Of a stretch of 64,000 nt of DNA, positions 5,955 through 36,284 are shown one piece after another. A model generated the notes under the pieces. The model did not search any database. It was not told the DNA's origin and worked only from the letters and a program-made list of their open reading frames with translations. A program made the translations under genes and the position numbers. The stretch covers positions 1,922,001 to 1,986,000 of the forward strand of contig NZ_CP008849.1 in NCBI RefSeq assembly GCF_000730385.1, read 5' to 3'. The number at the start of each line of letters is the position of its first letter. Position 1 is the stretch's first letter. The DNA comes from Alteromonas australica. GTDB taxonomy: Bacteria; Pseudomonadota; Gammaproteobacteria; Enterobacterales; Alteromonadaceae.

Positions 5955-6017
5955 TTGATATTTAATTGCTTTAAATAACACTATGTTTAATTTCGTGGGT
6001 GAATGAGTGAATGCTAG

Positions 6018-8252: not shown

Positions 8253-8277
8253 GCAACGGCTTAGCACCTAGCTATAT

Positions 8278-8306: not shown

Positions 8307-8386
8307 ATAAACCCTAATTTCGCTATTCAGTTAGCCATCAAAATGGTTGACAGGGATCGGCGTGTCGAAAATAAGGCAGAACAACC

Positions 8387-9976
8387 GTGTTAACTAAAGA
8401 AATTTTGCAAGCATTGAAAGGCTACACCGAGTCAATGCAAAAAAACGTAACCTTTGTCGTACAGACTGGTGAACACAGCAAGCGTGCTGAGCTTGTGTCG
8501 TTTCTGTCCGACATTGCAGGTGTAAGCGATAAATTAAATGTTGAAGAACGTGATACGCAAGGTCAATTGCGTAGCGCAATCAGTTTCCTACTTGAAGCCG
8601 ATGGCCAAGATACGGGGATTCGCTTCTCAGGCATTCCAGGCGGGCATGAGTTCAACTCACTGATCCTTGCTATTCTTCACGCCTCAGGAACTGAACTGAA
8701 AGTAGACGACAGCGTTAAATCTATAGTTAAAGCTGTAAAAGACGAACTTAACTTTGAAGTGTTCATCAGCCTTAGCTGTCACAACTGCCCAGAAGTTGTG
8801 CAGGCGCTTAATCAATTCGCGCTATTGAACGACAATATTACGTCTGAAATGATTGACGGTGGATTATATCAAAACCTGATCAGTGAGCGAGACATTCAAG
8901 GCGTTCCAAGCGTTTACCTAAACGGCGAGTTATTTGCCAACGGTAAAGTTGACGCAGCCTCACTTATCGACAAGCTTATTGAGCGCGATCCGTCGTTAAA
9001 AGAAGCGAATACAGGCGTACAATTACCACTTCAAGATGTCACCGTAATTGGTGGTGGTCCTGCAGGCGTAGCGTCTGCTATATACAGTGCTCGTAAAGGC
9101 CTGAAAGTTACCGTCGTGGCTGAAAGCTTTGGTGGCCAAGTAAAAGATACTATGGGTATTGAGAATCTTATCTCTGTACCAAAAACCACAGGCCCAGAGC
9201 TTGTTGGTAATTTGATGGAACACGTTAACGATTACGACATTACGCTTAAAGAGCATGTGCGTGTTGAGAATATCGAAAAAGGTAATGTGAAGACCATCAC
9301 ACTGTCTTCGGGTGAACAAATTCGTACCCGTTCACTGGTGGTTGCCACTGGTGCTCGCTGGAGAGAGTTGGGCGTGCCCGGTGAGAGAGAGAATGTTGGT
9401 AATGGTGTTGCGTATTGTCCGCACTGTGATGGTCCATTCTTTAAAGGTAAAGATGTGGCTGTTATTGGCGGCGGTAACTCAGGTATTGAAGCTGCACTAG
9501 ATTTGGCAGGCATTGTAAAATCGGTAACCGTATTTGAATTTATGCCTACGCTTAAGGCCGATCAGGTACTGATTGACCAAGCTGAAAAGCGTGACAATAT
9601 TACGATTATTAAGAATGCCGCTACCCGTCAGATTTTGGCTGAAAACGGTAAAGTCAATGCCATTGAATATCAAGATAGAAGTACTAATGAAGTGCATACT
9701 CTTGACTTAGCAGGTGTATTCGTCCAAATCGGGTTGGTTCCTAATAGCCAATTCATGAAAGATGTGGTGGAAATGACACCGTATGGCGAGATTGTTGTAG
9801 ATACTAAGTGTCAAACTTCTGAAGCAGGCATTTTTGCTGCGGGTGACGTGACAACTGTACCCTACAAGCAAATCGTTATTTCAATGGGCGAGGGCGCAAA
9901 AGCTTCTCTTGCAGCATTTGAATACTTACTCAGTCACGAAGTTATTGAGTCTGAAGACGAAAGTGCTGCTGCATAA
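8387..9976 (+). CDS. ahpF: Alkyl hydroperoxide reductase subunit F
   Basis: AhpF is the flavoprotein that passes electrons from NADH to oxidised AhpC. It has 529 residues. The N-terminal tandem thioredoxin-like domain holds Cys131-x-x-Cys134 (SCHNCP), and the thioredoxin-reductase-like part starts near residue 217 with the FAD motif VIGGGPAG. The redox pair Cys344-x-x-Cys347 is in YCPHCDG, and the NAD(P)H motif VIGGGNSG follows. Cysteine positions match the E. coli enzyme within one or two residues. The start is a GTG at 8387 with AAGG about ten bases upstream. It follows ahpC by 134 bases, behind a terminator hairpin, and ends at a strong terminator. Confidence 0.97.
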
Positions 9977-10010
9977 CAACAAAATACGCCTTCATTGAAC
10001 AGGCAACACT

Positions 10011-10045
10011 AAAAAGCAGACGCGTTATCGCGTCTGCTTTTTTTA
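10011..10045 (+). terminator. Rho-independent terminator after ahpF
   Basis: The perfect 14-bp stem AAAAAGCAGACGCG (10011-10024) pairs with 10029-10042 across a TTAT loop and runs into a T tract. Confidence 0.92.
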
Positions 10046-10112
10046 TACCTATTTTTTCATCGTGTCGAGCCTACCTTGTTTAGCGAGTCATTGGGATAAA
10101 ACTCGCTACTAC

Positions 10113-10133
10113 AAATGATAAGTCTTATCATTT
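10113..10133. promoter_or_regulatory. Fur-type operator
   Basis: The 7-1-7 palindrome TGATAAG-T-CTTATCA (10116-10130) extends to a perfect inverted repeat over 10112-10134. It matches the Fur consensus TGATAAT-A-ATTATCA in 12 of 14 arm positions. It lies about 100 bases upstream of a siderophore-receptor gene, so iron-dependent repression of that operon is likely. Confidence 0.75.
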
Positions 10134-10230
10134 GCAGTTTGGTTTGTTAGTATTGTTCTAGACGTCATGTACAGTGCCTAAATGGGCTGCAAATAATCAT
10201 AACTAACACACAGATAACAACCCTAAAACT

Positions 10231-20256: not shown

Positions 20257-20679
20257 TTAATGACTCATGGCGAATTTAGTGTCTGCATCTCTTAGTAAAT
20301 AAAGGGCGAAGCACGCTGCCCACATTGGCCATGCTGCAAAAAAGAGTAAGTGATTGAAGGCGTCAAAGTATTGTTGGAATGATGACAAGGTTGAGGCACC
20401 GTGGAGAAGGAAGACTAATCCGTAGGTGTAACGCTTTGCAAAGCCAGCCACGAATGCTAATACCAAAGCAAGTTGAAAGGCGCCTAATACATATACCGCT
20501 GTTTCTGGCACACCGCCAATCGAATAAAACTTTTCGAAAATTTTCATGCTGTGGGCTGGGTTGACAAATTTATCTAGTGTCCAAACAAACATCACAATAA
20601 ATACGGCTACGCGCAGAGAGAGTAAGGCCCAACTAAGGCGGGAGGTTAAAGAGAGGGGATCTTGCTGAGGGTTTTGCAT
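20257..20679 (-). CDS. DoxX-like four-helix membrane protein
   Basis: This 140-residue protein has four predicted transmembrane helices: SWALLSLRVAVFIVMFVW, VYVLGAFQLALVLAFVAG, YTYGLVFLLHGASTLSS and LLFFAAWPMWAACFALYLL. The first is followed by LDKFVNP, as in DoxX/SURF4-type proteins. The function of such proteins is loosely linked to redox or respiratory processes, and nothing here narrows it further. GGAG precedes the ATG by five bases. It converges with the EVE pseudogene (eight bases apart) and diverges from the large TonB-receptor operon. A TetR-type palindrome lies in the shared upstream region. Confidence 0.75.
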   Translation of the reverse strand: MQNPQQDPLSLTSRLSWALLSLRVAVFIVMFVWTLDKFVNPAHSMKIFEKFYSIGGVPETAVYVLGAFQLALVLAFVAGFAKRYTYGLVFLLHGASTLSSFQQYFDAFNHLLFFAAWPMWAACFALYLLRDADTKFAMSH

Positions 20680-20721
20680 GAGTACTCCAATTTCGTTTCT
20701 ATACTTTAGTCTAATGATATA

Positions 20722-20745
20722 GAACGACCGTTCAAGTTTAAACTT
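20722..20745. promoter_or_regulatory. TetR-type palindrome plus a second palindrome in a divergent promoter region
   Basis: GAACG-AC-CGTTC (20722-20733) has the look of a TetR-family operator. AAGTTTAAACTT (20734-20745) follows directly. They lie 43 bases upstream of the DoxX-like gene and about 95 bases upstream of the TonB-receptor operon, so they could control either or both. No matching regulator gene is adjacent. Confidence 0.4.
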
Positions 20746-20840
20746 TCATTTATATTCATTTTCTGAAAATAAAAAGTGTTCTGAAATTTTTTAAAATGCG
20801 TATCGGTCTAGTCAAATAAGAATTAAAAACGGAAAATTAC

Positions 20841-23186
20841 ATGAAAAACGTCGTTGGCCTTGCCTTAAGTGCGCTCGCCCTTGCAGTTAGTCAGGGCATC
20901 TCTGCTCAACAACTCACAGAAAATGAAATAGAAATAGTAGAAGTTAAGGGCAACGCGTCGTCGTTATTGAATATGAACCCCGCTGATAACTCACTTCGTG
21001 GGCTATTTGGCGAAAGCTTAAGTGCGGCAAACACGCCTCGTTCCGTTACCTCATTGTCGAAAGAAGCAATGGTGGCGTTAAATATTAATGATCTTCACGA
21101 TATCGTTAAAGCTGCGCCTAATGCTTATGCGTCTAGTGGCTTTGGTACGCCTAGCTTGCCAAGTATTCGTGGTCAGTTGGGTGAACTTTTTCAAGACGGT
21201 ATCCGCCGGCAAGCCGGTAATAATGGCTTTGGGCTTCCGTTGTCGTTTAACAGTGTGGAACAGTTAGACGTCGTAAAAGGGCCATCGCCCATTTTGTTTG
21301 GAAGCACTCAGCGTAACGGCGGGTTTGTTAACCTACAAACCAAGGTTGCACCCACCTTGGGGCGCGCAGGTAAAGCGACTTTTCGTGCAGCCCGATGGGA
21401 TCAATACTCAGCACAAGTAGACTACGGGCAAAGTATTAAAGAAGGGGAAAGCGGTTTTCGTCTCAGCACCGAATATGTCAATGAAGGCAGCTTTTACGAT
21501 TTTGTAGAAACAGAAAGTACTAACCTTTTTATAGCCTACCGTTATACCCCCAGCGAAGCGCTAACGTGGGATATCAGTGGGGAGTATTACGACACGGATT
21601 ACCCTGATAATGCGGGTATCAATCGCCCGACGCAAGACCTGATAGATAATGGCGTATATATTACAGGGCAGGGCGTGCAGGCCAATGGGAGTGAGGTACC
21701 AGGAGCGGGAGCCATAGTGTCTCCTACCGGCGAAGTGAAAATTCCACGCCATCGTGTGTTTACTCACCCGGATGATGTAAATGGTGCAAATACCACCGTA
21801 TTACGCAGTCATCTTACCTATCAATATTCTCCGAAAATAAAACTGAGAAACCTTAGTTATTATCAATATTTAGAACGGGAAGAAATTGCCCAAAATAGCT
21901 TCGTTGAAATTATTGATGGCGCGCACACTTTTGAAAATCGAAGCGAATTAGATTACACCTGGTCCACGTCACAAACCACTACGGTGGGGCTAGCGCTGCG
22001 CTTAAACGACGTTCTGGGCTACAGTCAATTTACCACGGAAGCAGACAACCCCATTGATTTAACGGGGCCTTTATCTAACCGCGTTATTCCTCTTACTGAC
22101 GCGCAAAAAGCACGTCTTGTTGAAATTCGCCCCAACGTCTTTGTGTCCCCTGGTGCACAATATGATGTAGACGGTGACGGTAATGGCGATTTCAACCTAT
22201 CCGATACAACGGATTCACGGGCGTGGCAATCCGGTTTGATGCTTCAACAGCAGTCAAAGTGGAGCGAACGGTTAACGACAGTGGCGGGGATTAGGCTAGA
22301 TTACTATGATGTAGCGGCGCAAGACCCATTAGCGCCGGAAGGTGTGGAGGCTGCTTCTGATAATTATAGTGATACGCTAACCAGTTATCAGCTCAGTGCG
22401 GTATACGGGTTAACTGAGAAAATAAACCTTTACGCTGTATTCTCAGAAAATGATGCTACCTCTAACAGTATGGCTGGTGGAACGGTACTAGGTGCTGATA
22501 ATCAAATAAACCCGCTTAACTTTGCTACGGAAAATACCTTATACGAAGTGGGCGTTAAATTGACACCCAATGATCGCTGGTATGCAGAAGCGTCGTTATT
22601 CGACCAAACCCGCAGTTTGCGAAATCGTGATGGCAGCAACAGTGGTATTGCCACGCAAGGTGCAGAGCTACAAGTATTTTACCAAAACGAACAGGTTTGG
22701 GTGAATGGGGCTTACAGCTATCTTGATGCGAGGTTTGATGACTCTGCGGCCTTTCAGGAAACCGCGCAAGTGCTTGACGTATTTGACAGTAGCCGCCCGG
22801 ATATCATCGAAGGTACAGGCGTAGGATCGCCTTCTTTTGCGGCATTCGCACCGTCAAATACACGGGTGCAAGGGATCCCTTCTCAGATAGCCTCACTGAA
22901 TGCAGGTTGGCAAGTGAATGGAAAGTTTGCGGTGGGCGCTAGCTTTCTTTACACCAAATCATTTCCACTCGATTTTTTGCAAACCGTGTATATTCGTGAC
23001 CAAATAGCGTTAGATATCAATGCCGATTATCGTGTGAACGAGCAACTAAGGCTTCGCGCTGATATTATCAACGTGACCGATGAAGAAAATTGGCAGCCTG
23101 TGTTTGAAGGCGGATACTTTGGCGCTACACTCGTGATGCCGAATGTGCCAAGACACTTACAACTCACGATGCAGTATGCGTTTTAA
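20841..23186 (+). CDS. TonB-dependent outer-membrane receptor heading an eight-gene operon
   Basis: This 781-residue receptor has a signal peptide cut near GISA, a TonB-box-like IEIVEVKG and a plug domain with LPSIRGQLGELFQDGIRR and QLDVVKGPSPILFGSTQRNGG. A long barrel closes in a terminal Phe (LTMQYAF). The plug resembles siderophore-type receptors, but no typical Fur box precedes the gene, unlike the two other siderophore-like operons in the window. The next gene starts 17 bases after its stop, and the gene train continues to 31276. The presence of a complete ABC importer in the same train suggests that this receptor brings the same substrate across the outer membrane. The substrate is unknown. 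Confidence 0.9.
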   Translation: MKNVVGLALSALALAVSQGISAQQLTENEIEIVEVKGNASSLLNMNPADNSLRGLFGESLSAANTPRSVTSLSKEAMVALNINDLHDIVKAAPNAYASSGFGTPSLPSIRGQLGELFQDGIRRQAGNNGFGLPLSFNSVEQLDVVKGPSPILFGSTQRNGGFVNLQTKVAPTLGRAGKATFRAARWDQYSAQVDYGQSIKEGESGFRLSTEYVNEGSFYDFVETESTNLFIAYRYTPSEALTWDISGEYYDTDYPDNAGINRPTQDLIDNGVYITGQGVQANGSEVPGAGAIVSPTGEVKIPRHRVFTHPDDVNGANTTVLRSHLTYQYSPKIKLRNLSYYQYLEREEIAQNSFVEIIDGAHTFENRSELDYTWSTSQTTTVGLALRLNDVLGYSQFTTEADNPIDLTGPLSNRVIPLTDAQKARLVEIRPNVFVSPGAQYDVDGDGNGDFNLSDTTDSRAWQSGLMLQQQSKWSERLTTVAGIRLDYYDVAAQDPLAPEGVEAASDNYSDTLTSYQLSAVYGLTEKINLYAVFSENDATSNSMAGGTVLGADNQINPLNFATENTLYEVGVKLTPNDRWYAEASLFDQTRSLRNRDGSNSGIATQGAELQVFYQNEQVWVNGAYSYLDARFDDSAAFQETAQVLDVFDSSRPDIIEGTGVGSPSFAAFAPSNTRVQGIPSQIASLNAGWQVNGKFAVGASFLYTKSFPLDFLQTVYIRDQIALDINADYRVNEQLRLRADIINVTDEENWQPVFEGGYFGATLVMPNVPRHLQLTMQYAF

Positions 23187-23202
23187 GCGCAATTAAGGAC
23201 CA

Positions 23203-25359
23203 ATGATGTTTAAAAAATTAGTGCTAGTTGCGGTTATTGCCGCTGCCATATTCGGTTTCTTTTATTTTGATTTAAATACCTATTTGACCTTAGAAGGAAT
23301 GAAAGGGTCGCTAGATACTTTTCAGTCTCAAATTGCACAAAACCCGGTATTAAGTATTGCCACATTCTTCGCAATTTATGTGGCCGTCACTGCATTATCT
23401 TTGCCCGGCGCCGCCATACTGACCCTCGCCGCGGGTGCGTTATTTGGCTTGATGCAGGGGCTTATTATTGTTTCGTTTGCCTCAAGCATAGGGGCGACAT
23501 TGGCGTTTTTAGTAGCGCGTTTTATCTTGAGAGACACGGTTCGGAATAAGTTTAAGGATAAGTTGAACAAGATTGATGAAGGGGTGGAAAAACAAGGGGC
23601 ATTTTACCTTTTTACGCTTCGATTAGTGCCTGTTTTCCCCTTTTTCTTAATTAACCTGTTAATGGGGTTAACTGCCCTTAAAGTGCGTACGTTTTACTGG
23701 GTAAGTCAACTTGGCATGTTAGCGGGCACTGCGGTTTATGTGAATGCGGGAACCCAGTTAGCGCAAATACAGAGCCTGTCAGGTATTGTTTCCCCCTCAC
23801 TTATCTTTTCATTCGTTCTTTTAGGTCTATTCCCTTGGATTGCCAAGGCCATTGTCGCAATAGTGAATCGTCGACGGGTATACAAGGGTTACACTAAACC
23901 TAAAAAGTTTGACCGTAATTTGGTGGTAATTGGGGCAGGCGCGGGAGGCTTGGTAACCAGTTATATTGCAGCTGCGGTAAAAGCCAAAGTTACCTTGGTA
24001 GAAGCGGGCGAAATGGGAGGAGACTGTTTGAACTACGGTTGTGTACCCAGTAAAGCCATTATTAAAACTGCCAAAGTAGCCAACCAAATGCGAAACGCCG
24101 ACAATTATGGCCTTAACGCTATAGAGCCCAGCATGTCGTTTAAGAGGGTCATGGCGCGAGTGCATGAGGTTATCGCGGCTATAGCGCCTAACGACAGTGT
24201 AGAAAGGTACACCAACCTAGGTGTTGATGTTGTTAAAGGGTACGCAAAAATTCGAGACCCTTGGACCGTTGATATCCGTAAAAGCGATGGTAGTACGCAA
24301 ACATTAACCACGAAAAATATTGTAGTTGCTACGGGCGCTAGCCCTTTTGTACCCGATTTACCCGGTATAGAGGACAGTGGCTATGTAACCTCTGATACCT
24401 TATGGCAGAAATTTGCGCAATTAGACACTGCACCTAAACGTTTAATCGTGCTAGGTGGCGGCCCTATTGGTTGTGAGCTTGCACAAGCATTTGCTCGCCT
24501 AGGTAGCGAGGTAACGCAAATAGAACGCGCACCACGTTTAATGGGGCGTGAAGACGTTGATGTGGCGGAATACGCCGATTCTGTTTTGCGAGAAAGTGGC
24601 GTTAAGGTACTCACTCGCCACGATGCGCTTCGCTTTGAATTGCAAAACGGAGAAAAAGTGTTAGTCGTGGCTAAAGAGGGGCGGGAACACACGGTTGCCT
24701 ACGACGAAGTCATAGTTGCAGTTGGACGAAAAGCCAGATTGAAAGGTTTTGGATTAGAAGAAATAGGCATCACCTTCGATAAAACCATTGATACCGATGA
24801 ATATTTACAAACAATAATGCCCAATATCTTTGCTGCAGGAGACGTGGTTGGGCCCTATCAGTTTACTCACGTAGCTTCCCATCAGGCGTGGTACGCAGCC
24901 GTTAATGCCTTATTTGGCAGCTTTAAGAAGTTTAAAGTGGATTACCGTGTGATTCCATGGACCACTTTTATCGACCCCGAAGTGGCCCGGGTAGGTCTTA
25001 ATGAAACCGAAGCGCAGGAAAAGGGCATAGAGGTTGAGGTGACACGCTACGAATTTGCAGAATTGGATAGAGCGGTAGCCGAAAGCGCGCGAAAAGGCTT
25101 TATTAAAGTGTTGACGCCACCTGGGAAAGATAAAATTCTAGGTGTCACTATTGTGTCAGAGCATGCCGGTGACTTACTGGCAGAATTTGTTATCGCCATG
25201 AAGCACGGGTTAGGGTTAAACAAAATCTTAGGCACTATTCATACGTACCCCACTTGGGCAGAAGGTGCTAAATATGCTGCGGGAAACTGGAAGCGTGCCA
25301 ATGCGCCAGAAAAGCTACTTACCTACGTTGAAAAATTTCATACTTGGCGTAGAGGATAA
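23203..25359 (+). CDS. Fusion of a DedA/VTT (TVP38/TMEM64) membrane domain with a MerA-like flavin disulfide reductase
   Basis: This is a 718-residue fusion. Residues 1-230 are a VTT-type membrane domain with about five helices and the family segments LPGAAILTLAAGALFG and LRLVPVFPFFLINLLMGLT. Residues 238-718 are a pyridine nucleotide-disulphide oxidoreductase. It has the FAD motif VIGAGAGG (from 242), the redox pair Cys275-x4-Cys280 in GDCLNYGCVPSKA, the NAD(P)H motif VLGGGPIG and the C-terminal HTYPTWAEG base motif. The C-terminal Cys-Cys pair and the metal-binding domain of true mercuric reductase are absent, so Hg(II) reduction is unlikely. VTT proteins elsewhere move or scramble lipids. 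The gene sits 17 bases after the receptor and five bases before the DUF547 gene. Its substrate is unknown. Confidence 0.9.
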   Translation: MMFKKLVLVAVIAAAIFGFFYFDLNTYLTLEGMKGSLDTFQSQIAQNPVLSIATFFAIYVAVTALSLPGAAILTLAAGALFGLMQGLIIVSFASSIGATLAFLVARFILRDTVRNKFKDKLNKIDEGVEKQGAFYLFTLRLVPVFPFFLINLLMGLTALKVRTFYWVSQLGMLAGTAVYVNAGTQLAQIQSLSGIVSPSLIFSFVLLGLFPWIAKAIVAIVNRRRVYKGYTKPKKFDRNLVVIGAGAGGLVTSYIAAAVKAKVTLVEAGEMGGDCLNYGCVPSKAIIKTAKVANQMRNADNYGLNAIEPSMSFKRVMARVHEVIAAIAPNDSVERYTNLGVDVVKGYAKIRDPWTVDIRKSDGSTQTLTTKNIVVATGASPFVPDLPGIEDSGYVTSDTLWQKFAQLDTAPKRLIVLGGGPIGCELAQAFARLGSEVTQIERAPRLMGREDVDVAEYADSVLRESGVKVLTRHDALRFELQNGEKVLVVAKEGREHTVAYDEVIVAVGRKARLKGFGLEEIGITFDKTIDTDEYLQTIMPNIFAAGDVVGPYQFTHVASHQAWYAAVNALFGSFKKFKVDYRVIPWTTFIDPEVARVGLNETEAQEKGIEVEVTRYEFAELDRAVAESARKGFIKVLTPPGKDKILGVTIVSEHAGDLLAEFVIAMKHGLGLNKILGTIHTYPTWAEGAKYAAGNWKRANAPEKLLTYVEKFHTWRRG

Positions 25360-25363
25360 GGTG

Positions 25364-26182
25364 ATGAATGCTATACACAATGGGCTAGCCATACGGTGTC
25401 TGTTATTTACTTTGTGTTTCGTGGCTACGCCACCCTTTGCCCAAATTAACTTGCATGCGCCTTTTGACCAGTTATTACAAAAGCACGTTGTCGCCATTAA
25501 TGATGGTAAAAGTACCCAGGTAGATTACGCCGCATTAGCAAAGGATAAATCAGAATTAGATGGGTATTTATCTGCCTTAGCCGCTATCGATACTGCCACG
25601 TTTGCGGGTTGGAATAAAGACAGACAACTGGCCTTTTTAATTAACGCCTATAATGCTTACACTCTGGCGTTGATCATTGAACATTACCCCGATATTGAGT
25701 CTATTCGAGATATTGGTGGCTTTTTTTCTTCACCATGGAAGCAGGCGTTTGCGCCTCTTCTAGGAAAAACGCGCACCTTGGATAATATCGAGCATGGGTT
25801 AATTCGCGGTGGCAACAAATATCAAGAACCCCGCATTCACTTCGCGGTTAATTGTGCCAGTATAGGCTGCCCCGCCTTACGCGAGGAAGCCTATACAGAA
25901 GCCAAATTATCGCAGCAACTCGAATCGCAAACGCAACGTTTTCTGTCTGATAATTCAAGGCATTATATTGAGGGTAATACCTTAAAGGTTTCAAAAATAT
26001 TTGATTGGTATCGCGATGATTTTGAAGCGCCTTGGCGAGGGGCTACCTCATTAAATGGCTTTTTATTGTTATATGTAAGCGCATTTGATTTAACTGAGGC
26101 GCAGCAAAGAGCATTAAGAGCGGGTACCTTAAACATTGAATTTTCCGATTACGACTGGGCATTGAATGATCGGGAGAAATAA
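25364..26182 (+). CDS. DUF547 domain protein, exported
   Basis: This 272-residue protein has a signal peptide (hydrophobic core LAIRCLLFTLCFVATPPFA) and a DUF547 domain. The family blocks are FLINAYNAYTLALI, SIRDIGGFFSSPWK, LDNIEHGLIRG, HFAVNCASIGCPALR with paired cysteines, and ISKIFDWY-type KVSKIFDWYRDDF. The biochemical function of DUF547 is unknown, although the fold has been compared with cysteine-protease or transglutaminase-like proteins. The ATG at 25364 has AGGA seven bases upstream and follows the previous stop by five bases. The longer frame into the previous gene is not needed. It is often found with MerA-like/VTT fusions, which agrees with this context. Confidence 0.85.
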   Translation: MNAIHNGLAIRCLLFTLCFVATPPFAQINLHAPFDQLLQKHVVAINDGKSTQVDYAALAKDKSELDGYLSALAAIDTATFAGWNKDRQLAFLINAYNAYTLALIIEHYPDIESIRDIGGFFSSPWKQAFAPLLGKTRTLDNIEHGLIRGGNKYQEPRIHFAVNCASIGCPALREEAYTEAKLSQQLESQTQRFLSDNSRHYIEGNTLKVSKIFDWYRDDFEAPWRGATSLNGFLLLYVSAFDLTEAQQRALRAGTLNIEFSDYDWALNDREK

Positions 26183-26207
26183 GCGCAAATTCCAAGGAGT
26201 TGCGGTA

Positions 26208-27377
26208 TTGCGCCTAAGACTACTTGGGTTTGCCTGTGTAGTGTTAAGTTTGCTATGTGCTAACGCGAACGGCGATACCGTTCAATTTCATGCATGGGGC
26301 GGCAGTGCGCAAGTTAATAGCTATTTGCAATGGGTGAAGCAAGAGGTTAAGCGGCTACATAATATCGATTTAAATCATGTAAAGCTGGCGGATACCAGTG
26401 ACGCGGTGTCTCGGGTGTTGGCTGAAAAGGCGGCAGGCAATCTTGATAATGGCAGCGTGGATCTCATTTGGATTAATGGCGAAAACTTTGCTGCCATGCA
26501 TCGCCATGGTTTATTGAAATCAAACTGGGTGGCCACGCTTACTCATTTTTCACTCACCAACGCCACGGAAAATCCCGCCATGGTAACCGACTTTGGCTTA
26601 CCTACAGAAGGGCAAGAAGCGCCATGGGGTAAAGCTGCAATGGTTTTTTATCACAATAGTGTATTGTTGCCTCATCCTCCTAAAACCCTGCCGGCATTGT
26701 TGCAGTTTTCTAAGGCAAATCCAGGGCGTTTCACTTATCCATTGCCCAGTGATTACCTAGGCATTAGTTTTTTAAAATACGCGCTTATTGCTTTAAACAA
26801 TCAACACCGCGATAGGTTATATGAGCCGGTAACGCCGGAGGCATTCAAGCAATTATCTGAACCCTTATGGACCTTTTTAGATGCACTGCACCCAACAATG
26901 TGGCAACAAGGGAAATACCGCGTGCGTCAGGCCTCTGAGTTACAACGTTTAATGGATAGCGAGTCATTATGGCTTGCTTTTTCGTTTACTGCCGCAGAAA
27001 TTCCTAGCGCGGTTAACCGTTACGATTTGCCGCCTAGTGTTCGCACTTACGCCATGAATGACGGTAGCCTTGCCAATGTGCATTTTATTGGTATTCCGTT
27101 TAACGCGGCGCATTTCGAAGAGGCTAAAGTCGTGGTGGATTTTTTGTTATCGCCTCGGGCACAAGCGAAGAAAATGCAGTTACAAACATGGGGGGATGAC
27201 ACAGTGTTGGATATGGCCATGCTGAATGAGGCGCAACGAGCACTGTTTAAACAACACAATAAACACCCCTCTGCTTTACCTTCTGACGCGTCTGTGCCGC
27301 TTTTTGCAGAACCTCACGCAAGTTGGACAGAAGCACTAAAAGAGGCTTGGTTCGCGCGCTATCAAGGTTACTTTTAA
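26208..27377 (+). CDS. ynjB: YnjB-type ABC transporter periplasmic substrate-binding protein
   Basis: This protein of about 389 residues is the predicted solute-binding component of an importer. It has a signal peptide (RLLGFACVVLSLLCANANG), then VQFHAWGGSAQVNSYLQWV, typical of YnjB, followed by IWINGENFAAM and GKAAMVFYHN. This is the type of binding protein used for ferric ions, thiamine and phosphonates, but the YnjB ligand is not known to me. The TTG at 26208 has AAGGAG eight bases upstream. An ATG at 26166 overlapping the DUF547 gene is the alternative and would put extra basic residues in front of the signal peptide. The stop overlaps the permease start by one base (TAATG). Confidence 0.87.
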   Translation: MRLRLLGFACVVLSLLCANANGDTVQFHAWGGSAQVNSYLQWVKQEVKRLHNIDLNHVKLADTSDAVSRVLAEKAAGNLDNGSVDLIWINGENFAAMHRHGLLKSNWVATLTHFSLTNATENPAMVTDFGLPTEGQEAPWGKAAMVFYHNSVLLPHPPKTLPALLQFSKANPGRFTYPLPSDYLGISFLKYALIALNNQHRDRLYEPVTPEAFKQLSEPLWTFLDALHPTMWQQGKYRVRQASELQRLMDSESLWLAFSFTAAEIPSAVNRYDLPPSVRTYAMNDGSLANVHFIGIPFNAAHFEEAKVVVDFLLSPRAQAKKMQLQTWGDDTVLDMAMLNEAQRALFKQHNKHPSALPSDASVPLFAEPHASWTEALKEAWFARYQGYF

Positions 27378-29125
27378 TGACGGTCTTTGAGCGCTATACC
27401 CAGGGCGCGAGCCTACTTTTTATGGCCGTGTTATTTGTGCCCATTACCGCCGGGGTGGTGGGGGTTATTCTACCTGCTTTTGGTTATTTCCCTGCATTAG
27501 GCAGTGAACAGTTCAATGTGCAGGCATTTCACGCATTTTTTGCCCAGCCCTCTAACCTTAAGATGATTCAGCTTTCTTTTACCACGGGGGTGATGGCGAC
27601 AGTCATTGCCGTAACGGGCGCCTTTGTCATTCTGGCCTTTCTGTATAACACTACGCTGTTATCACGTGTTCAGCGGCTAATAAGCCCTTTGTTGGTGCTG
27701 CCACATGCCGGCATTGCTATTGCACTGCTGTTTGTTCTCTCTCCAGCGGGGTTGTTTAGCAAGCTGTTAAATCAATTTGGGGTAGGGGAATATGGATGGG
27801 TGCCGGTTAACTGGGTTTTTCCTTATGATGAACACGGTGTGGCCATTGTCTTTGCGTTAGCGTTAAAAGAACTGCCGTTTATCCTGCTAATGGCGTTGGG
27901 GGTGATGGCACAGCCCCAGGTGGTTAAAACCGTGCAAGGGTATAGTAAAGCGGCGATCATGATGGGGAATTCACCTGAGTCTGCTTTTTTTAAAGTGGTG
28001 TTGCCTGTTATTTATCCGCAAATTCGACTGCCTATATTAGCCGTATTGGCATTTTCGACGGCAAATGTGGAAATACCTTTGTTGTTAGGTCCAAATAACC
28101 CTGCAACCCTTGGCGTGGCAGTTGTTCAGTGGTTTAATCATGTGGATCTTAGTCTGCGTTTTCAGGCGAGTGCTGCCGCCATGATTCAAGTGGGTGTCAC
28201 GTTAAGTGCTCTACTGGTGTGGTGCTTGATAGAAAAGGGAATAGGGCTTTTTTCAAAAACCTATTTTTTGAGTAAAGAAAGTGGCCTGTTTAAACACATG
28301 GTGAGATTTTTTGCCACGGGTATTTTAACCCTTTACGCCATCGTCAGTGCGTTGGTGTTATTCAGTGTGATCATGTGGTCATTCTCCACATATTGGACAT
28401 TTTCGTCGTTGCTTCCTGATGGCCTTACTCTACTGCATTGGCAAACAGCATTGGGTAGTCTGGGGCCAGTGGTATTAAATACAGTCGTGTTAGGAGGAAG
28501 CGTCAGCGTGGTTGCGGTGGTGCTTACGTTGTTGACGCTAGAGTTTGAAAGTGCTCATGGCAAAGACAACGCCATAGGTTATTCCCCTAAAATATTCGCT
28601 GTCTTACTGTTTCTTCCGTTATTGGTACCCGGTGTGGCCTTTTTGTACGGGTTAGTATGGTTTCAGCAACGCTTTTTGCCTGACACTATTTTTCTATCAC
28701 TGTTTATTGCGCATTTGGTTTACGTGCTGCCTTATGTGTTTATCTCACTGGCAGTGGCGTATCGCAAGTTAGACTCGCGCTACGAACAAGTTGCGTCGAG
28801 TTTAGGAAAAACACCTTGGCAGGTATTTACGCAAATAAAACTGCCGCTTTTAATTAGCCCGTTATTGATTGCCCTTGCGTTAGGTATAGCAATAAGTGTT
28901 GCGCAATATTTGCCTACGTTGTTAGTAGCTGCCGGGCAGTATACGACGATTACCACAGAAGCTGTGGCATTGGCGTCTGGAAGCAGTCGCCGTTTAACTG
29001 CGGTATATGTGGTTATTCAAGCGCTATTACCTTGGTTGTTTTTTAGCTTAGCGTGGTGGTTTTCTCCGCGTCTTTTCTCGCCTAGTGAGCGTTTGAATTT
29101 TTTTAAGAGGGCAAGGGGCGTATGA
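27377..29125 (+). CDS. ynjC: YnjC-type ABC transporter permease (two fused permease domains)
   Basis: This 582-residue inner-membrane protein has about twelve helices in two tandem permease domains. EAA-type loops are visible near residues 185-225 (VQGYSKAAIMMGNSPESAFFKVVLPVI region) and near 470-495 (VASSLGKTPWQVFTQIKLPLL). The double-length architecture is that of FbpB/ThiP-like permeases and of YnjC. The start ATG overlaps the TAA of the binding-protein gene, and its end overlaps the ATPase start by four bases, so the three importer proteins are translationally coupled. It forms the channel through which the YnjB cargo should pass. Confidence 0.9.
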   Translation: MTVFERYTQGASLLFMAVLFVPITAGVVGVILPAFGYFPALGSEQFNVQAFHAFFAQPSNLKMIQLSFTTGVMATVIAVTGAFVILAFLYNTTLLSRVQRLISPLLVLPHAGIAIALLFVLSPAGLFSKLLNQFGVGEYGWVPVNWVFPYDEHGVAIVFALALKELPFILLMALGVMAQPQVVKTVQGYSKAAIMMGNSPESAFFKVVLPVIYPQIRLPILAVLAFSTANVEIPLLLGPNNPATLGVAVVQWFNHVDLSLRFQASAAAMIQVGVTLSALLVWCLIEKGIGLFSKTYFLSKESGLFKHMVRFFATGILTLYAIVSALVLFSVIMWSFSTYWTFSSLLPDGLTLLHWQTALGSLGPVVLNTVVLGGSVSVVAVVLTLLTLEFESAHGKDNAIGYSPKIFAVLLFLPLLVPGVAFLYGLVWFQQRFLPDTIFLSLFIAHLVYVLPYVFISLAVAYRKLDSRYEQVASSLGKTPWQVFTQIKLPLLISPLLIALALGIAISVAQYLPTLLVAAGQYTTITTEAVALASGSSRRLTAVYVVIQALLPWLFFSLAWWFSPRLFSPSERLNFFKRARGV

Positions 29126-29781
29126 CGTTAAAGTTGGATAGTCTTACGATTTATAATCAACAACTGGATACAAGCAAACCGCTATTAACGTTAAATAGTG
29201 AAATTAAATCGGGGGAAATCGTGTCTGTTATGGGGGCGAGCGGTTCGGGAAAGTCAACATTGTTGGCGGCAATTGCAGGGCATTTAATGCCGCCTTTTTC
29301 GAAAACAGGGCGTATTTACCTCAACGGCAACTGCATTGATGAACTCGCACCCTATGAGCGTAAAATAGGGCTGATGTTTCAAGATCCTTTTTTATTTGAA
29401 CATATGAGTGTGGCTGAAAATATTGGCTTTGCGCTTGCTCAAAATCTGCAATATGCCACGCGTTCTAAACATGAAAAACGACGCCATATTGTTCAAATGC
29501 TCGCCTCAGTTGGCTTAGATGAAATGGCAAATAGACCGGTGCAATCTTTATCCGGCGGACAGCAGTCTCGCGTAGCGCTACTGCGTACGCTAGCTGCGGC
29601 TCCCAAAGCAATATTGCTTGATGAGCCATTTAGTAAGCTTGACCCTGAGACTCGCTCGCACATGAGAGCCTGGGTGTTTAATAAATTAAAAGAAGGTGGC
29701 ATTCCTACCTTAATGGTGACACACGATAGCGATGATGCCGTTGCTGCTGGTGGCCGAATTATTGAGATTTCTTCATGTTAG
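29122..29781 (+). CDS. ynjD: YnjD-type ABC transporter ATP-binding protein
   Basis: This 219-residue ATPase powers the importer. It has Walker A GASGSGKST, a Q-loop in GLMFQDPFLF, the signature LSGGQQSRVALLRTL, Walker B ILLDEPFSKLD and the switch His in MVTHD. At about 220 residues it lacks the C-terminal regulatory domain of larger importer ATPases, which fits YnjD. The start overlaps the permease stop (ATGA), and the last seven bases overlap the next gene. Confidence 0.92.
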   Translation: MTLKLDSLTIYNQQLDTSKPLLTLNSEIKSGEIVSVMGASGSGKSTLLAAIAGHLMPPFSKTGRIYLNGNCIDELAPYERKIGLMFQDPFLFEHMSVAENIGFALAQNLQYATRSKHEKRRHIVQMLASVGLDEMANRPVQSLSGGQQSRVALLRTLAAAPKAILLDEPFSKLDPETRSHMRAWVFNKLKEGGIPTLMVTHDSDDAVAAGGRIIEISSC

Positions 29782-30395
29782 ATGCAAAAGTAACGCCTTA
29801 CATTAAGCCAATGCTTAGGCCTTTGGTGAGTTGGCTTGATAAACAAAATGTGACGCCAAATCAAATTACCGTGGCGGGTTTTTGTCTAGGTCTGCTTGCA
29901 ATGCCGTTTATTATTTTGGGTGTATGGAGCGGGGCGTTTGCGTGTATCTGCTTAAATAGAGTTTGTGACGGTATTGATGGAGAGCTAGCTAGGTATCAAA
30001 GCAGTAGCAGTAGTGCAGGGGGCTTTTTAGATATTTGTCTGGATTTTTTGTTTTACGCCTCCGTACCCTTGGCTTTTGGTATGGCCAACCCTCAAGAATG
30101 GGGCGTTCCAGCGTTGGTATTAATCGCCAGCTTTATCGGTACAGGCAGTAGTTTTCTTGCCTTTGCCATTGCGGCTGAAAAATTTAATATCGATAGGCCG
30201 CAGTTTTCAAATAAAAGCTTTTACTACATGCAGGGTTTAACTGAGGGCACAGAAACTATAGCCGTGTTTCTCGCGTTTTGTCTGTGGCCCAGTTATTTTG
30301 CGCCATTGGCGTACCTTTTTGCTGGTGCGTGCGCTATAACTGTGGTTACCCGCATTGTATTTGGTTTTACCACGCTAAAAGCACTTGAGAAATAG
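29775..30395 (+). CDS. ynjF: YnjF-type CDP-alcohol phosphatidyltransferase
   Basis: This 206-residue integral membrane enzyme of the CDP-alcohol phosphotransferase family should transfer a phosphatidyl-type group from a CDP-linked donor to an alcohol, or the reverse pairing. The full motif D-x2-D-G-x2-A-R-x8-G-x3-D-x3-D is intact in CDGIDGELARY followed by GGFLDICLD. About six helices are predicted. YnjF lies in the same cluster in E. coli (ynjBCD, ynjE, ynjF); its substrate is not established. The seven-base overlap with the ATPase gene shows tight coupling to the importer. This suggests that the imported compound, or a product of it, may become a lipid head group; that is inference. Confidence 0.9.
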   Translation: MLDAKVTPYIKPMLRPLVSWLDKQNVTPNQITVAGFCLGLLAMPFIILGVWSGAFACICLNRVCDGIDGELARYQSSSSSAGGFLDICLDFLFYASVPLAFGMANPQEWGVPALVLIASFIGTGSSFLAFAIAAEKFNIDRPQFSNKSFYYMQGLTEGTETIAVFLAFCLWPSYFAPLAYLFAGACAITVVTRIVFGFTTLKALEK

Positions 30396-30478
30396 CTGTG
30401 TTTATAACGCAATGCGGGTTGATATCTTCAGGGGGCATCATGATGTTCACGGCGACAAAGGAAGTAGGTTAGCCACCT

Positions 30479-31276
30479 ATGGAAAATGAATCTTTGATAA
30501 GAGTCGGCGCGTTTGTGTGTATTTTTACGGTGATGGCAATGTGGGAAGCAACACGGCCTGCACGTAAAGCGCAGCTCTCTGCTTGGGTAAGATGGCGGGG
30601 GAATTTTGCGATGGTATTGGCCGGCGCACTCATCACGCGTCTTTTATTGCCGGGCGCATTAGTAGGTGTGGCGCTTTGGGCAAATAACGCCAATTGGGGG
30701 GTGTTTAATCGTCTATCTTTGCCTGCTTGGATTGAAATAAGTGTGTGTATGCTTTTGTTAGATTTGGTGATCTATTGGCAACACCGCCTGTTTCATACCG
30801 TGCCGTTATTATGGCGTTTTCACCAAATGCATCATGCAGATAGCCATGTGGACACCACAACAGGCCTACGGTTTCACCCTATCGAAATTGCCTTGAGTTT
30901 ACTGATTAAAGCCGCCGTGGTCATTTTTCTTGGCGTACCCGCATTAGCAGTAGTCATTTTTGAGGTGGCATTGAACGGTTTTGCTATGTTTAATCATGCC
31001 AATATTAAACTGCCCTCAGCGGTAGATAATGCCATCAGCAAACTGTTTATTACGCAACGTGTGCATCGTATTCACCATAGTCAACGTATTGAAGACTCAA
31101 ACAGCAACTTTGGTTTCAGTGTGTCGTGGTGGGATAAACTTTTTAATAGCTACCAACATGAAGCTTCGCTTAGCGACGACGATATCAAAATAGGGCAAGC
31201 AGAGATTCCAGCGTCAAAGCAAAACGCCAGTGTCATTGGCTTACTGTTAATGCCTTTTCGCCGTCATCGCCGGTGA
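30479..31276 (+). CDS. Sterol desaturase / fatty acid hydroxylase family membrane di-iron enzyme
   Basis: This 265-residue membrane protein has the three His clusters of the family: HxxxH in HRLFH (residues 102-106), HxxHH in HQMHH (115-119) and HRIHHSQ further on. The typical NFGFSVSWWDKLFNSY segment follows. Such enzymes hydroxylate or desaturate lipids or related hydrocarbons using O2 and two iron atoms. It follows the phosphatidyltransferase gene by 83 bases and is the last gene of the apparent operon, so it may modify a lipid made by the neighbours, although the larger gap allows a separate promoter. The ribosome site is weak. Confidence 0.87.
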   Translation: MENESLIRVGAFVCIFTVMAMWEATRPARKAQLSAWVRWRGNFAMVLAGALITRLLLPGALVGVALWANNANWGVFNRLSLPAWIEISVCMLLLDLVIYWQHRLFHTVPLLWRFHQMHHADSHVDTTTGLRFHPIEIALSLLIKAAVVIFLGVPALAVVIFEVALNGFAMFNHANIKLPSAVDNAISKLFITQRVHRIHHSQRIEDSNSNFGFSVSWWDKLFNSYQHEASLSDDDIKIGQAEIPASKQNASVIGLLLMPFRRHRR

Positions 31277-31300: not shown

Positions 31301-31879
31301 CTACATCACACCTATTGTGGTCAAAACCAGGTACAGTGTCCCCAACTGAAGGACAGAACCCACACCTATAAACACACCATCTCGATTGGTCATCCCTAAC
31401 GCTGTAATACATAACGCGAACGCAGGTAAAGCTACCGCAAAAGGCAGCGCTTCAAGAGGGATCATGCATAGCGCGGCAATGGCACAATAGCCCGCGATAA
31501 CGTTTTTCATGGGAGTTTGAGAGAGCTGCGTCATTCGTGGCCGTAATAACTTTTCTACGCGCTGAACCTTGGGTTTGGCTTTTTCCACGGCGCTTTCAAG
31601 TTTATCGGTTTCAATTTGTTGCTGGGTCAGTTTATTGGGTAGCCATGGGCTCTCTCGGCCCATGGCAGCTTGCACACAAATTAAGAAAAGCGTAATGCCA
31701 CAAAAGGTAGGCACGCCAGGAATAGCGCCAGTAGGCAGTAGCGCAATTAACGACGGTATTAAAAGCAAAGGTCCAAAACCTCTGTCTTCAAAGCGAGCAA
31801 TAATTTTCCCCGCAGAAACCTTATCTCCATCTTGCTCCTTAACTAGCTTGTTAAGCAGCTTACTCATTGACGTGTCCAT
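31301..31879 (-). CDS. ExoD-family membrane protein
   Basis: This 192-residue protein matches the ExoD family (named for a Sinorhizobium gene affecting exopolysaccharide). The segments RFEDRGFGPLLLIPSLIALL and GAIPGVPTFCGITLFLICVQ appear first, followed by WLPNKL, a charged linker and C-terminal helices. About four transmembrane segments are predicted. The molecular role is unknown. AGGGA precedes the ATG by five to six bases. It converges with the hydroxylase-like gene upstream and stands alone. Confidence 0.85.
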   Translation of the reverse strand: MDTSMSKLLNKLVKEQDGDKVSAGKIIARFEDRGFGPLLLIPSLIALLPTGAIPGVPTFCGITLFLICVQAAMGRESPWLPNKLTQQQIETDKLESAVEKAKPKVQRVEKLLRPRMTQLSQTPMKNVIAGYCAIAALCMIPLEALPFAVALPAFALCITALGMTNRDGVFIGVGSVLQLGTLYLVLTTIGVM

Positions 31880-33839: not shown

Positions 33840-36284
33840 ATGCACATTAATATTGCCAAATCGAAAACGCTCAGCGCTACTACAGCGCTATTTTCTTTAC
33901 TTTATGTTTCAACGCCGTTTGCCCAACAGCAAGCGAATGTTGAAAAGGAAGAGGTTGAACAAACAGATATCGCTGAAGTAAGCGATGAAAATCTTGACGT
34001 TATTACAGTTTACGGCCGCCATAATCGACTGATTTTAGAGTCAGGTACTGCTACCAAATCAAATATGAGTTTGATGGAAACGCCAGCGGCCATTGTCGTC
34101 GTAGATGGCACCTTGCTTAACGAACAAGGGGTTAGCACACTACAAGAAAGTATCAGAAATATTAGTGGCCTGAGTCAAGATGGAAACAACTATGGCGTGG
34201 GAGACAACCTAGCTATCCGTGGCCTTGGTGTGAATTATACCTTTGATGGTATTTACGCGGGCGCTGACCTGGGAAATAGCTACAACCCCACTCGTTCAAT
34301 GACCAACGTTGAAAGTATAGAAGTATTGAAAGGGCCGGCAACAGGCTTGTATGGCATGGGTGAGGCTGGGGGTATTATTAACCTGATTGAGAAAAAACCC
34401 CAGTTTGAAGATCAGTATCAAATTCGCGCGTCCGTCGGTAGCTGGGACAGCTATTCAATAATGCTAGATGCCACCGGCGCTATTAATAAAGATCTTGCTT
34501 ACCGCGTGGTGGCAAACCGCGAACAATCTGACGGCTATCGAGGTTTGAGTGACGAACGCAGTGAGTTATACACGTCACTAAAATTCATTGCATCACCAGA
34601 CAATCAGTTTTTAGTCTCTGCGGCCTATATTGACGATGCGGTACAAGTTGACTCAGTGGGTCATCCAGTGAGATTAATCGATTTAACCATGTTTGATACA
34701 GACGCAGGGAGTTTAACCGGTGATGATTTGGTTAATGACACTGCAGAGTCAGGTGGTTTACAGTTAACTGATGAACAACGAGACGAATTAGCCGCATCAC
34801 TCACGTCAACAGACGGTGTGCAGCCTTATGATTTAGGTGACACCAGTCTTATTTCGCCTATTTCACGCCCTAATGAAGGGGAAGAGTTCCGCATTAAAGT
34901 ACGCCAAGATATTGAATTGGGTGATAACTGGTCACTAACTCAGCAACTTCAATATCGCTCGTACGAATCTGAATACATTCGTCAAACCAGTGCTTTCAAT
35001 TACGTGTACGTTGATCGTAATGGCACCACTAATTTAGAGCCTCGTGCGCCGCTTGTTATTGATGGTGTGCTATACCCGTTTGCGGCACGCAGACAAGAGT
35101 ATCGTAAGGTAATGGCTGATGAGAAAGTGTGGCAGTATTTCCTTGATGTCACCAAAACATGGTCTTTTGGCGATGTTCGAGGTGAACATTTAGCCAGCGT
35201 GAACTATGAAGACCACGACATTAGCTACGCACAGTGGTCTATTTGGGACGCAGACGATACACGAAGCGATGCTGTACCGTATATTTTAGATATACGCGAC
35301 CCTAATTGGCCTACTGGCACATTTGAAGATTACAACCCTTCCTTACGCAGCAAATACAACAAAGATGTGAGTAGCTGGGGCGTGAGTTTCCAAGAAGTGG
35401 TTTACTTTAATGAGCACTTTACTGGCCGTTTTGGTGGCGCCTACGGTGGGGTAAAACAAACTTACCTAAACCAATATAGCGACAGTAATCCAGAGTACGA
35501 TACCAGTGACAACGGATTTACCTATAACCTAGGTTTAACCTACTTATTCAGTGATAGCTTGAGTACGTTCATTAACCATTCTAAGGGAAGAACCGCGTAC
35601 GGTATTTTAGATGCGCTAGCAGAAGAAGATAATCAGCCTGATTCAGAATCGGAATCGTGGGATTTTGGTGTGCGTTTCACGGCGCTTGAAGAGCAGGTTA
35701 TTGGTTCAATTGTATTTTTTGATACTGCTAGAACCAACCTTCAATACAGCAACCCCTTATATGAAGACAATATTGACGACCCTTCGTATAACGTTGATGT
35801 GCCGGAATACTACTACGATGAACAAGATCGCACCACAGGTGTAGAAGTAGACATTAACTTTGATATCAACGAACAATGGTCACTTAATGCGAATGGCACA
35901 TATCAAGATCCTGTCACCGAGCCTGGTGCGCATGCCTCAAGCACTGATGAAGAGCAAACTAAAGGGATTGCAGAAAAGTTCGCCAGCACATGGCTAACTT
36001 ACAGTCATACCTTCGATGCGCTGCCAGCGCCTGTGAAGTTTAGTGTGGGCGTAACCTACGAAGACGAACGCACTATTTCTGCGTCAGCCTTTGGTATCGA
36101 TTACGCATTCGTTGACTCATATACAGTATGGGACGCGGCCGTGAGCTATGTGTCTGATGATTGGAACGTACAATTAAACGTTCGAAACTTAGACAATACT
36201 GACTACTACAGCAGCGCAATGTACTTGGGTGGCCTCCCAGGCGAAGAGCGTAACGTTAAGCTAACCGCTTCGTATAGCTTTTAA
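33840..36284 (+). CDS. TonB-dependent siderophore receptor
   Basis: This 814-residue receptor has a signal peptide ending near TPFAQQ (about residue 30), a TonB-box-like DVITVYGRH and a plug with ESIRNISGLSQDGNNYGVGD, LAIRGLGVNYTFDGIY and IEVLKGPATGLYGMGEAGG. The barrel ends in LTASYSF. The plug is of the ferric-siderophore type. It is followed after 14 bases by DUF3649, PepSY and DUF3325 genes. This arrangement is seen repeatedly in proteobacterial iron-siderophore loci. A Fur-type palindrome upstream supports iron control. The siderophore cannot be named. Confidence 0.93.
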   Translation: MHINIAKSKTLSATTALFSLLYVSTPFAQQQANVEKEEVEQTDIAEVSDENLDVITVYGRHNRLILESGTATKSNMSLMETPAAIVVVDGTLLNEQGVSTLQESIRNISGLSQDGNNYGVGDNLAIRGLGVNYTFDGIYAGADLGNSYNPTRSMTNVESIEVLKGPATGLYGMGEAGGIINLIEKKPQFEDQYQIRASVGSWDSYSIMLDATGAINKDLAYRVVANREQSDGYRGLSDERSELYTSLKFIASPDNQFLVSAAYIDDAVQVDSVGHPVRLIDLTMFDTDAGSLTGDDLVNDTAESGGLQLTDEQRDELAASLTSTDGVQPYDLGDTSLISPISRPNEGEEFRIKVRQDIELGDNWSLTQQLQYRSYESEYIRQTSAFNYVYVDRNGTTNLEPRAPLVIDGVLYPFAARRQEYRKVMADEKVWQYFLDVTKTWSFGDVRGEHLASVNYEDHDISYAQWSIWDADDTRSDAVPYILDIRDPNWPTGTFEDYNPSLRSKYNKDVSSWGVSFQEVVYFNEHFTGRFGGAYGGVKQTYLNQYSDSNPEYDTSDNGFTYNLGLTYLFSDSLSTFINHSKGRTAYGILDALAEEDNQPDSESESWDFGVRFTALEEQVIGSIVFFDTARTNLQYSNPLYEDNIDDPSYNVDVPEYYYDEQDRTTGVEVDINFDINEQWSLNANGTYQDPVTEPGAHASSTDEEQTKGIAEKFASTWLTYSHTFDALPAPVKFSVGVTYEDERTISASAFGIDYAFVDSYTVWDAAVSYVSDDWNVQLNVRNLDNTDYYSSAMYLGGLPGEERNVKLTASYSF

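Follow-up and report, generated by a model that had tools for sequence, protein, structure and literature searches.

What a substrate importer is doing in one gene block with enzymes of lipid metabolism is the question raised by positions 20841 to 31276 of a 64,000-nucleotide stretch of Alteromonas australica DNA (hereafter the window; NCBI RefSeq assembly GCF_000730385.1, contig NZ_CP008849.1, positions 1,922,001 to 1,986,000 of the forward strand). A preliminary description, made from the sequence alone, had proposed that a TonB receptor and the YnjBCD importer encoded there form a two-membrane uptake route, and that the imported compound may feed a lipid head group. Our analysis suggests that the second proposal is better supported than that description stated, since the importer and the phosphatidyltransferase YnjF accompany one another almost without exception, and that the first holds only in some lineages. 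The block is an elaborated version of the uncharacterised ydjXYZ-ynjABCD/ynjF cluster of Escherichia coli.

All eight genes previously described are present on the plus strand, as judged by an open reading frame (ORF) list, Pfam, NCBIfam and BLAST, and their domains were found by Pfam. In order, they encode a TonB-dependent outer-membrane receptor of 781 amino acids (aa) (20841..23186; plug and barrel domains); a 718-aa fusion of a VTT (DedA/TVP38) domain to a flavin disulfide reductase (23203..25359; Pfam VTT, Pyr_redox_2 and dimerisation domains), here called the VTT-flavin protein; a DUF547 protein whose start resembles a signal peptide by eye (25364..26182; 94.7 bits); the periplasmic binding protein YnjB (26166..27377, start uncertain; NF008633 and Pfam SBP_bac_8); the two-domain ATP-binding cassette (ABC) permease YnjC (27377..29125; BPD_transp_1, both halves matching E. 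coli YnjC); the ABC ATPase YnjD (29122..29781; ABC_tran, and BLAST to E. coli YnjD); a YnjF-type cytidine diphosphate (CDP)-alcohol phosphatidyltransferase (29775..30395; CDP-OH_P_transf, and BLAST to E. coli YnjF); and an enzyme of the fatty-acid-hydroxylase/sterol-desaturase family (30479..31276; FA_hydroxylase, 100.8 bits). The spacing given earlier is right to about one base: the receptor and VTT-flavin genes are 16 bases apart and the VTT-flavin and DUF547 genes 4, YnjB overlaps YnjC by 1 base (ATG at 27377), YnjC overlaps YnjD by 4 and YnjD overlaps the transferase gene by 7, and 83 bases separate the latter from the hydroxylase gene. The part that does not hold firm is the DUF547-YnjB gap, which hinges on the YnjB start that is chosen (the longest frames begin at 26166 for YnjB and 27323 for YnjC). 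Internal terminators or separate transcription starts had been named as findings that would speak against a single operon; between 19600 and 32000 there are 16 promoter-like sites against 20.0 in shuffled sequences (standard deviation 4.3) and 20 terminator-like sites against 16.0 (standard deviation 4.1), and at such near-shuffle levels no internal break is marked in the block. From the gaps, the conservation and the lack of internal signals we infer that the eight genes are one transcription unit.

The distribution of YnjB and YnjF carries the argument. Among 394 sampled genomes of the order, 132 have YnjB and 262 do not; YnjF, scored present at E 1e-30 or better, is found in 131 of the former and none of the latter, and the sole exception (G275) is a genome that is 85% complete. 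The Fisher values for YnjF and for the VTT-flavin protein against YnjB (4.7e-106 and 1.2e-40, respectively) ignore kinship and, because the sampled species are related, are not probabilities of independent events. The two genes lie within 7 kb of one another in 109 of these genomes and farther apart in 22. In six of the farther pairs YnjC or YnjD adjoins YnjF (L173, L176, L177, L179, L181, L183), the separation being due to a contig break or a second copy; L178 and L182 allowed no judgement, and the other 14 pairs look truly apart. Nine of the 14 were read around YnjF (L146, L167-L172, L174, L175), and YnjBCD is not there. Five of the 14 have YnjB and YnjF 1.1-1.9 Mb apart on one contig. In the 14 less the nine that were read, the distance exceeds 1.7 Mb on one contig in G055 and G137, and the genes are on different contigs in G109, G124 and G150.

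The same association is seen in a phylum-wide sample of 224 genomes (8 of its 17 YnjB genomes are also in the order sample), in which YnjF was scored present at 131 bits or more, the next match being at 50 bits. YnjB occurs in 17 of these genomes and YnjF in 21; 16 have both, 1 has YnjB alone and 5 have YnjF alone, so that YnjF is present in 16/17 YnjB-positive and 5/207 YnjB-negative genomes. Outside the order it is found in eight of the nine YnjB genomes, and in five of these eight the pair is unlinked (on separate contigs, or at a distance of between 67 kb and 2.8 Mb). Within the window's own family 15 of 35 genomes have both genes and 20 have neither, and five genera are mixed. Our searches, which covered an open-access library, did not find this profile in print.

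The sequences of the importer and the transferase are consistent with their assignments. YnjB scores 448.6 bits against the NCBIfam model NF008633, whose cut-off is 203. YnjB and YnjD are 41% and 42% identical to their E. coli counterparts, YnjC is 41% identical to E. coli YnjC in its C-terminal 123 aa and 23% in its N half, and the transferase is 50% identical to E. coli YnjF over its whole length. Enzymes of the CDP-alcohol phosphatidyltransferase family couple an alcohol activated with CDP to another alcohol, in most cases making phospholipids, and their catalytic motif is D..DG..AR...G...D...D. The window's transferase carries DGIDGELAR...D...D, and the motif is intact in all 27 sequences of its subgroup; in the 16 sequences of the E. 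coli-like subgroup the spacer is one residue shorter. Of the enzymes with solved structures, the CDP-alcohol phosphotransferase AF2299 and inositol-phosphate enzymes come closest to YnjF, at 48 to 28 bits. YnjF thus shares its family and motif with the phosphatidylinositol-phosphate and archaetidylinositol-phosphate synthases, but falls far under the equivalog cut-offs of both (67.2 against 180 and 37.4 against 170, respectively) and has invariant residues of its own (K147, E157, E160-T161 and R193), of which E157 and E160-T161 are in the C-terminal part. For these two reasons its acceptor is probably something other than plain inositol phosphate.

The cargo could not be read from YnjB. Its AlphaFold model is good (mean predicted local distance difference test score, pLDDT, 88.7), and we found no sequence relative in the PDB at E 0.1 or better. 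The best Foldseek matches, at 10-19% identity, are STM0429 (a 2-aminoethylphosphonate binder) and sugar-phosphate, polyamine, metal-citrate and ferric binders; since many ligand classes match about equally, the fold does not pick a cargo and we dropped this approach. The equivalog cut-off for PhnV of the 2-aminoethylphosphonate ABC importer is also not reached (57.7 against 358.7).

Is the block a unit, or a set of chance neighbours? Comparison of gene neighbourhoods, the check that the preliminary description had proposed, found the same set in the same order in Alteromonas, Salinimonas, Rheinheimera, Catenovulum and Pseudoalteromonas. When named genomes were searched and the best 80 YnjB loci kept, all eight genes with order and strand preserved were found in 10 loci (L013-L022), which belong to Alteromonas, Salinimonas, an Alteromonadaceae metagenome-assembled genome and Rheinheimera. 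The remaining 70, from Halomonas relatives, Alphaproteobacteria and others, include no locus scored as complete, although our ORF caller is crude at high G+C content and called no YnjB in 13 of the 80. A second set of 40 further YnjB loci contains the full block in 10, and over both sets 57 loci have YnjB together with a VTT-type match, 20 of them with the complete block (two of the complete loci, L013 and L095, are one genome). The same eight genes in order, between other flanks, are on annotated replicons of Pseudoalteromonas sp. Bsw20308, Pseudoalteromonas sp. CuT4-3 and Catenovulum adriaticum, and the CuT4-3 copy is on a 65-kb plasmid (L186); that strain has a YnjB on a 792-kb replicon as well. 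In another family of the class (L166) DoxX (see below), VTT-flavin, DUF547, receptor, YnjBCD and YnjF genes are present, reordered and without the hydroxylase. Since the order is kept amid differing flanks, the block is a unit and its members are not chance neighbours. That the lipid enzymes in particular might be chance neighbours of ynjBCD, which had been offered as grounds for abandoning the proposal, is contradicted by the co-occurrence of YnjB and YnjF even where they are unlinked and by linkage of the hydroxylase to the VTT-flavin gene at sites that lack YnjBCD (L137, L146). Neighbouring genes at two other loci looked suggestive by size but turned out to be different known genes and were discarded: ribosomal L9, DnaB, an RNB-domain nuclease and a SpoU methylase at L110, and glucokinase, HrpB and an Lrp-type regulator at L062.

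The preliminary description had also stated that ynjBCD and ynjF cluster in E. coli with no settled function. The E. coli K-12 locus indeed reads ydjX, ydjY, ydjZ, ynjA, ynjB, ynjC, ynjD, ynjE and then ynjF reversed, and the accessible portions of PMC3836016, PMC3688515, PMC2731931, PMC7818093, PMC8801600, PMC9207381 and PMC3930520 give no function for YnjBCD or YnjF. The window resembles this locus in having homologues of YnjB, YnjC, YnjD and YnjF with a VTT protein adjacent (the VTT-domain proteins YdjX and YdjZ are encoded upstream in E. coli, and the window's VTT domain is 28% identical to YdjX). It differs in that E. coli, instead of the flavin fusion, has separate VTT proteins and the ferredoxin-type YdjY, has YnjA (AhpD-like) and YnjE (a sulfurtransferase), for which no BLAST partners were found among the ORFs of window positions 10000-42000, and carries ynjF on the opposite strand; conversely, the receptor, DUF547, DoxX and hydroxylase are not annotated at the E. 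coli locus. According to the parts of these sources that we could draw on, ydjXYZ-ynjABCD is among the operons directly activated by FNR (PMC3688515, Table 1), ynjABCD is weakly induced by BaeR (PMC2731931), ynjABCDEFI group together and with the Suf iron-sulfur genes in a genetic-interaction screen (PMC3930520), and YnjBCD, described as an uncharacterised transporter, is enriched in a Marinobacter clade (PMC9207381). The FNR-activated operon and the redox and metalloid-type associations had been left out of the preliminary description.

In the order sample the VTT-flavin protein, scored at E 1e-120 or better, is present in 91 of the 132 genomes with YnjB and in 15 of the 262 without, and it is within 6 kb of YnjB on one contig in 57 of the 91 and not in 34. 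The 41 YnjB genomes without it comprise all 12 of family f18, 28 of the 32 of family f21 and one incomplete genome. Each of the five f18 loci that we read (L118-L120, L125, L126) has one or more separate VTT genes near YnjB, and three f21 genomes give a VTT-only match at 56-58%. Like mercuric reductase and dihydrolipoyl dehydrogenase, the reductase part has an intact CxxxxC redox pair (GGDCLNYGC) and a His-Glu dyad (HTYPTWAE). Unlike them, the protein is fused to a VTT domain, falls under the equivalog cut-offs (378.6 against 454.45 for the mercuric reductase model TIGR02053) and lacks the C-terminal Cys pair, which is found in 1 of 55 matches, a 492-aa protein in L065. The VTT-type family includes human TMEM41B, and to our knowledge its substrates are largely unsettled. 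In the portion of PMC7818093 available to us, the family to which the domain belongs is proposed to consist of transporters.

The receptor is less constant. Among 40 YnjB-positive and 20 YnjB-negative genomes, scored at E 1e-60 or better, it is found in 11 and 0, respectively, and the gene that precedes VTT-flavin in L100, L101 and L107 is unrelated to it (ribonucleotide-reductase-like by eye). The receptor is therefore optional, and the two-membrane uptake route proposed earlier becomes a lineage-specific addition. In the window's own family, of which 10 of the 15 YnjB-positive genomes and all 20 negatives were searched, the receptor is present in 9/10 against 0/20, DUF547 in 9/10 against 1/20, and the hydroxylase in 9/10 against 1/20. 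The negative genome with a hydroxylase (G383) has it adjoining a VTT-flavin gene (L137), and in G026 (L146) a VTT-flavin gene, YnjF, a PdxH-like gene and the hydroxylase are grouped while YnjB is elsewhere in the genome. A further large frame at 33840-36284 (+), 2.5 kb beyond the operon, is TonB-receptor-like by eye.

Histidine motifs of the hydroxylase family are present in all 28 sequences compared, the window's included; the enzyme falls under the cut-off for the ornithine-lipid hydroxylase OlsE (79.9 against 475). The DUF547 protein has the motif RIHFAVNCAS..CP invariant in 11 of 11 aligned sequences. Its AlphaFold model (pLDDT 86.7) matches no PDB entry at E 0.001 or better; the fold may be one not yet solved, in a protein whose Cys-containing motif is invariant, and a papain-like nature is not supported by a fold match at that threshold.

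The earlier list of members lacked a gene that travels with the block. A DoxX-family membrane protein is encoded divergently from the receptor at 20257..20679 (minus strand; Pfam DoxX, 29.2 bits), and BLAST matches to it were found in 23 loci besides the window, in 18 of which it is likewise divergent beside the receptor. Elsewhere it lies beyond the hydroxylase (L022), in front of the VTT-flavin gene (L166) or beside DUF547 (L131 and L152, in both cases outside the operon); the match in L065 is weak (46 bits). Since its position shifts while it stays with members of the module, DoxX is likely a ninth member. The operon and DoxX share an intergenic region of 161 bases (20680..20840), where, as the preliminary description had said, no Fur box is apparent: the best match to the consensus is 12/19, which 279 of 1000 resampled sequences also reached. 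An inverted repeat at 20722 in the same region, GAACGACCGTTC, recurs among the upstream regions read exactly in L017 and loosely in L094 only, and because of this limited recurrence we do not claim it as an operator. At the other end the operon is met by a convergent ExoD family gene (31301-31879, minus strand; ORF list and Pfam), and at 46656-47015 on the minus strand the window contains a tmRNA gene with the tag ANDETYALAA.

That an importer is paired with an enzyme of the CDP-alcohol phosphatidyltransferase family is best explained by import of a head-group alcohol or its precursor. The mutual grouping of ynjABCDEFI in the E. coli screen and the cluster of VTT-flavin, YnjF and hydroxylase away from YnjBCD in L146 also speak for a shared lipid role. 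The reading that we favour, with confidence a little short of even, is that the block takes up a scarce polar alcohol-type compound and incorporates it in a membrane lipid. Where there is a TonB receptor, it would carry the compound across the outer membrane; YnjB would bind it in the periplasm and YnjCD import it with ATP; YnjF would then join it, or a derivative, to CDP-diacylglycerol to give an unusual phospholipid, which the VTT domain may move or hold in the membrane. The fused flavin reductase, with DoxX, might keep a thiol or other redox group of the compound reduced, the hydroxylase might modify the lipid, and DUF547 would act in the periplasm. What the co-occurrence bears out of the original head-group proposal is the partnership of importer and transferase; the direction of the pathway, the cargo class and the roles of the reductase, DoxX, DUF547 and hydroxylase are our inferences.

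Several observations weigh against this idea. A Halomonas-type genome (G474) has YnjB without YnjF, and the five phylum-sample genomes with YnjF alone mean that YnjF can manage without this importer. Joint loss in the window's family can be one deletion, since YnjB and YnjF are adjacent there, and in the families with unlinked pairs members lacking both genes could not be discerned, as 20 of the 263 YnjF-negative genomes were identified. The receptor is absent from 29 of the 40 YnjB genomes examined, YnjF matches enzymes of solved structure only weakly (at most 48 bits), and the E. coli screen, as far as the accessible part of PMC3930520 goes, groups the ynj genes with Suf assembly and not with lipids. 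In favour of the reading, two genomes without YnjB keep YnjF close to a VTT-flavin gene: the two adjoin in L156 and are separated by two genes in L158, where positions 4743-10490 hold, in a row, VTT-flavin, a small protein without a Pfam match, a concentrative nucleoside transporter and YnjF. The nucleoside transporter is a possible substitute importer. We keep a nucleoside-like cargo as a lead only; it comes from one genome, and similar transporters are beside YnjC in L176 and L177, on the other strand.

The rival that survives best, though we think it rather unlikely, is that the genes handle a sulfur, selenium or arsenic compound, which YnjBCD would import or scavenge and VTT-flavin, DoxX and their relatives would reduce or conjugate, the lipid enzyme only anchoring the product. 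It draws on the Halomonas relatives, whose loci resemble the window in YnjBCD and the VTT-flavin fusion but have sugar-type transferases and a kinase in place of the receptor, DUF547, YnjF and hydroxylase. In L023 an APH-family kinase, YnjBCD, TIGR04283, TIGR04282, VTT-flavin and TIGR03169 (Nterm_to_SelD) form one cluster, with TIGR04283 and TIGR04282 (the latter pair termed 'arsenosugar biosynthesis glycosyltransferase') both over cut-off; in this layout the kinase-like gene comes before and the SelD-associated reductase after, and YnjBCD and VTT-flavin flank the transferases. The kinase, both transferases and a VTT-flavin match occur together in 18 of the best 80 loci. The APH-family kinase (L023:8789-9829), for which we found no NCBIfam or PDB relative, is directly upstream of YnjB in 27 loci and may phosphorylate the imported compound. 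Three other loci (L134, L135, L136) place radical SAM, ArsM-like methyltransferase, TIGR04282-like and glycosyltransferase genes with DUF547 or with VTT and flavin genes, an arrangement that could be read as a variant of an arsenosugar-like pathway; none of these is over the arsenosugar cut-offs, and the methyltransferase and glycosyltransferase of L135 are assumed from gene order. The YnjA and YnjE proteins of the E. coli cluster fit this rival too. On the other side, no recognised arsenic gene is in the block by Pfam or NCBIfam, and TIGR04282 and ArsS (TIGR04167) are over cut-off in 0 of 60 genomes, the window's own included, which has only a 46-bit TIGR04282 match; TIGR04283 was not searched for. 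We therefore rejected membership in an arsenosugar cluster and keep arsenic as a theme of the rival. Together, the Halomonas-type and L134-L136 contexts point to sugar-like compounds, perhaps bearing sulfur, selenium or arsenic, which is compatible with a lipid fate.

It is quite improbable that the neighbourhood, although conserved, is functionally mixed, with YnjBCD and YnjF serving one function and the receptor, DUF547 and hydroxylase others. Each of these three is absent or separate in some genomes, and in L131 and L152 DUF547 and DoxX are neighbours away from the operon; however, such independence is at odds with how closely all three follow YnjB in the window's family and with the recurrence of seven of the eight genes plus DoxX, reordered, in the other family represented by L166. 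Least probable, and in our view very doubtful, is import of iron or another metal chelate with the remaining genes merely co-regulated, since, although the modelled YnjB fold falls in a class that includes ferric and metal-citrate binders, the receptor matches nothing in the PDB at E 0.01 or better except a siderophore receptor's plug region (E 3.6e-7) and the E. coli genes group with iron-sulfur assembly genes (PMC3930520, in part), the upstream gap has no Fur box above chance, the receptor is under the heme/transferrin cut-off (TIGR01786, 49.6 against 323.75) and the near-perfect YnjF profile is left unexplained.

It is a bolder and unlikely, though not far-fetched, extension of the lipid head-group reading that YnjBCD and YnjF are a widespread lipid-salvage pathway, in which the importer of a head group is almost always accompanied by the transferase that attaches it, for a class of phospholipid as yet undescribed in enteric and marine bacteria. 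In marine Alteromonadales its head group might be an algal compound of sugar-like type, perhaps containing sulfur or arsenic, for which the TonB receptor would be dedicated and which VTT-flavin and DoxX would keep reduced. Should importer and phosphatidyltransferase prove to be partners, one lipidomics comparison of single deletions would address the question, and, if the reading is true, salvage of head groups would connect uptake at the outer membrane with lipid make-up and give a VTT-type protein a job.

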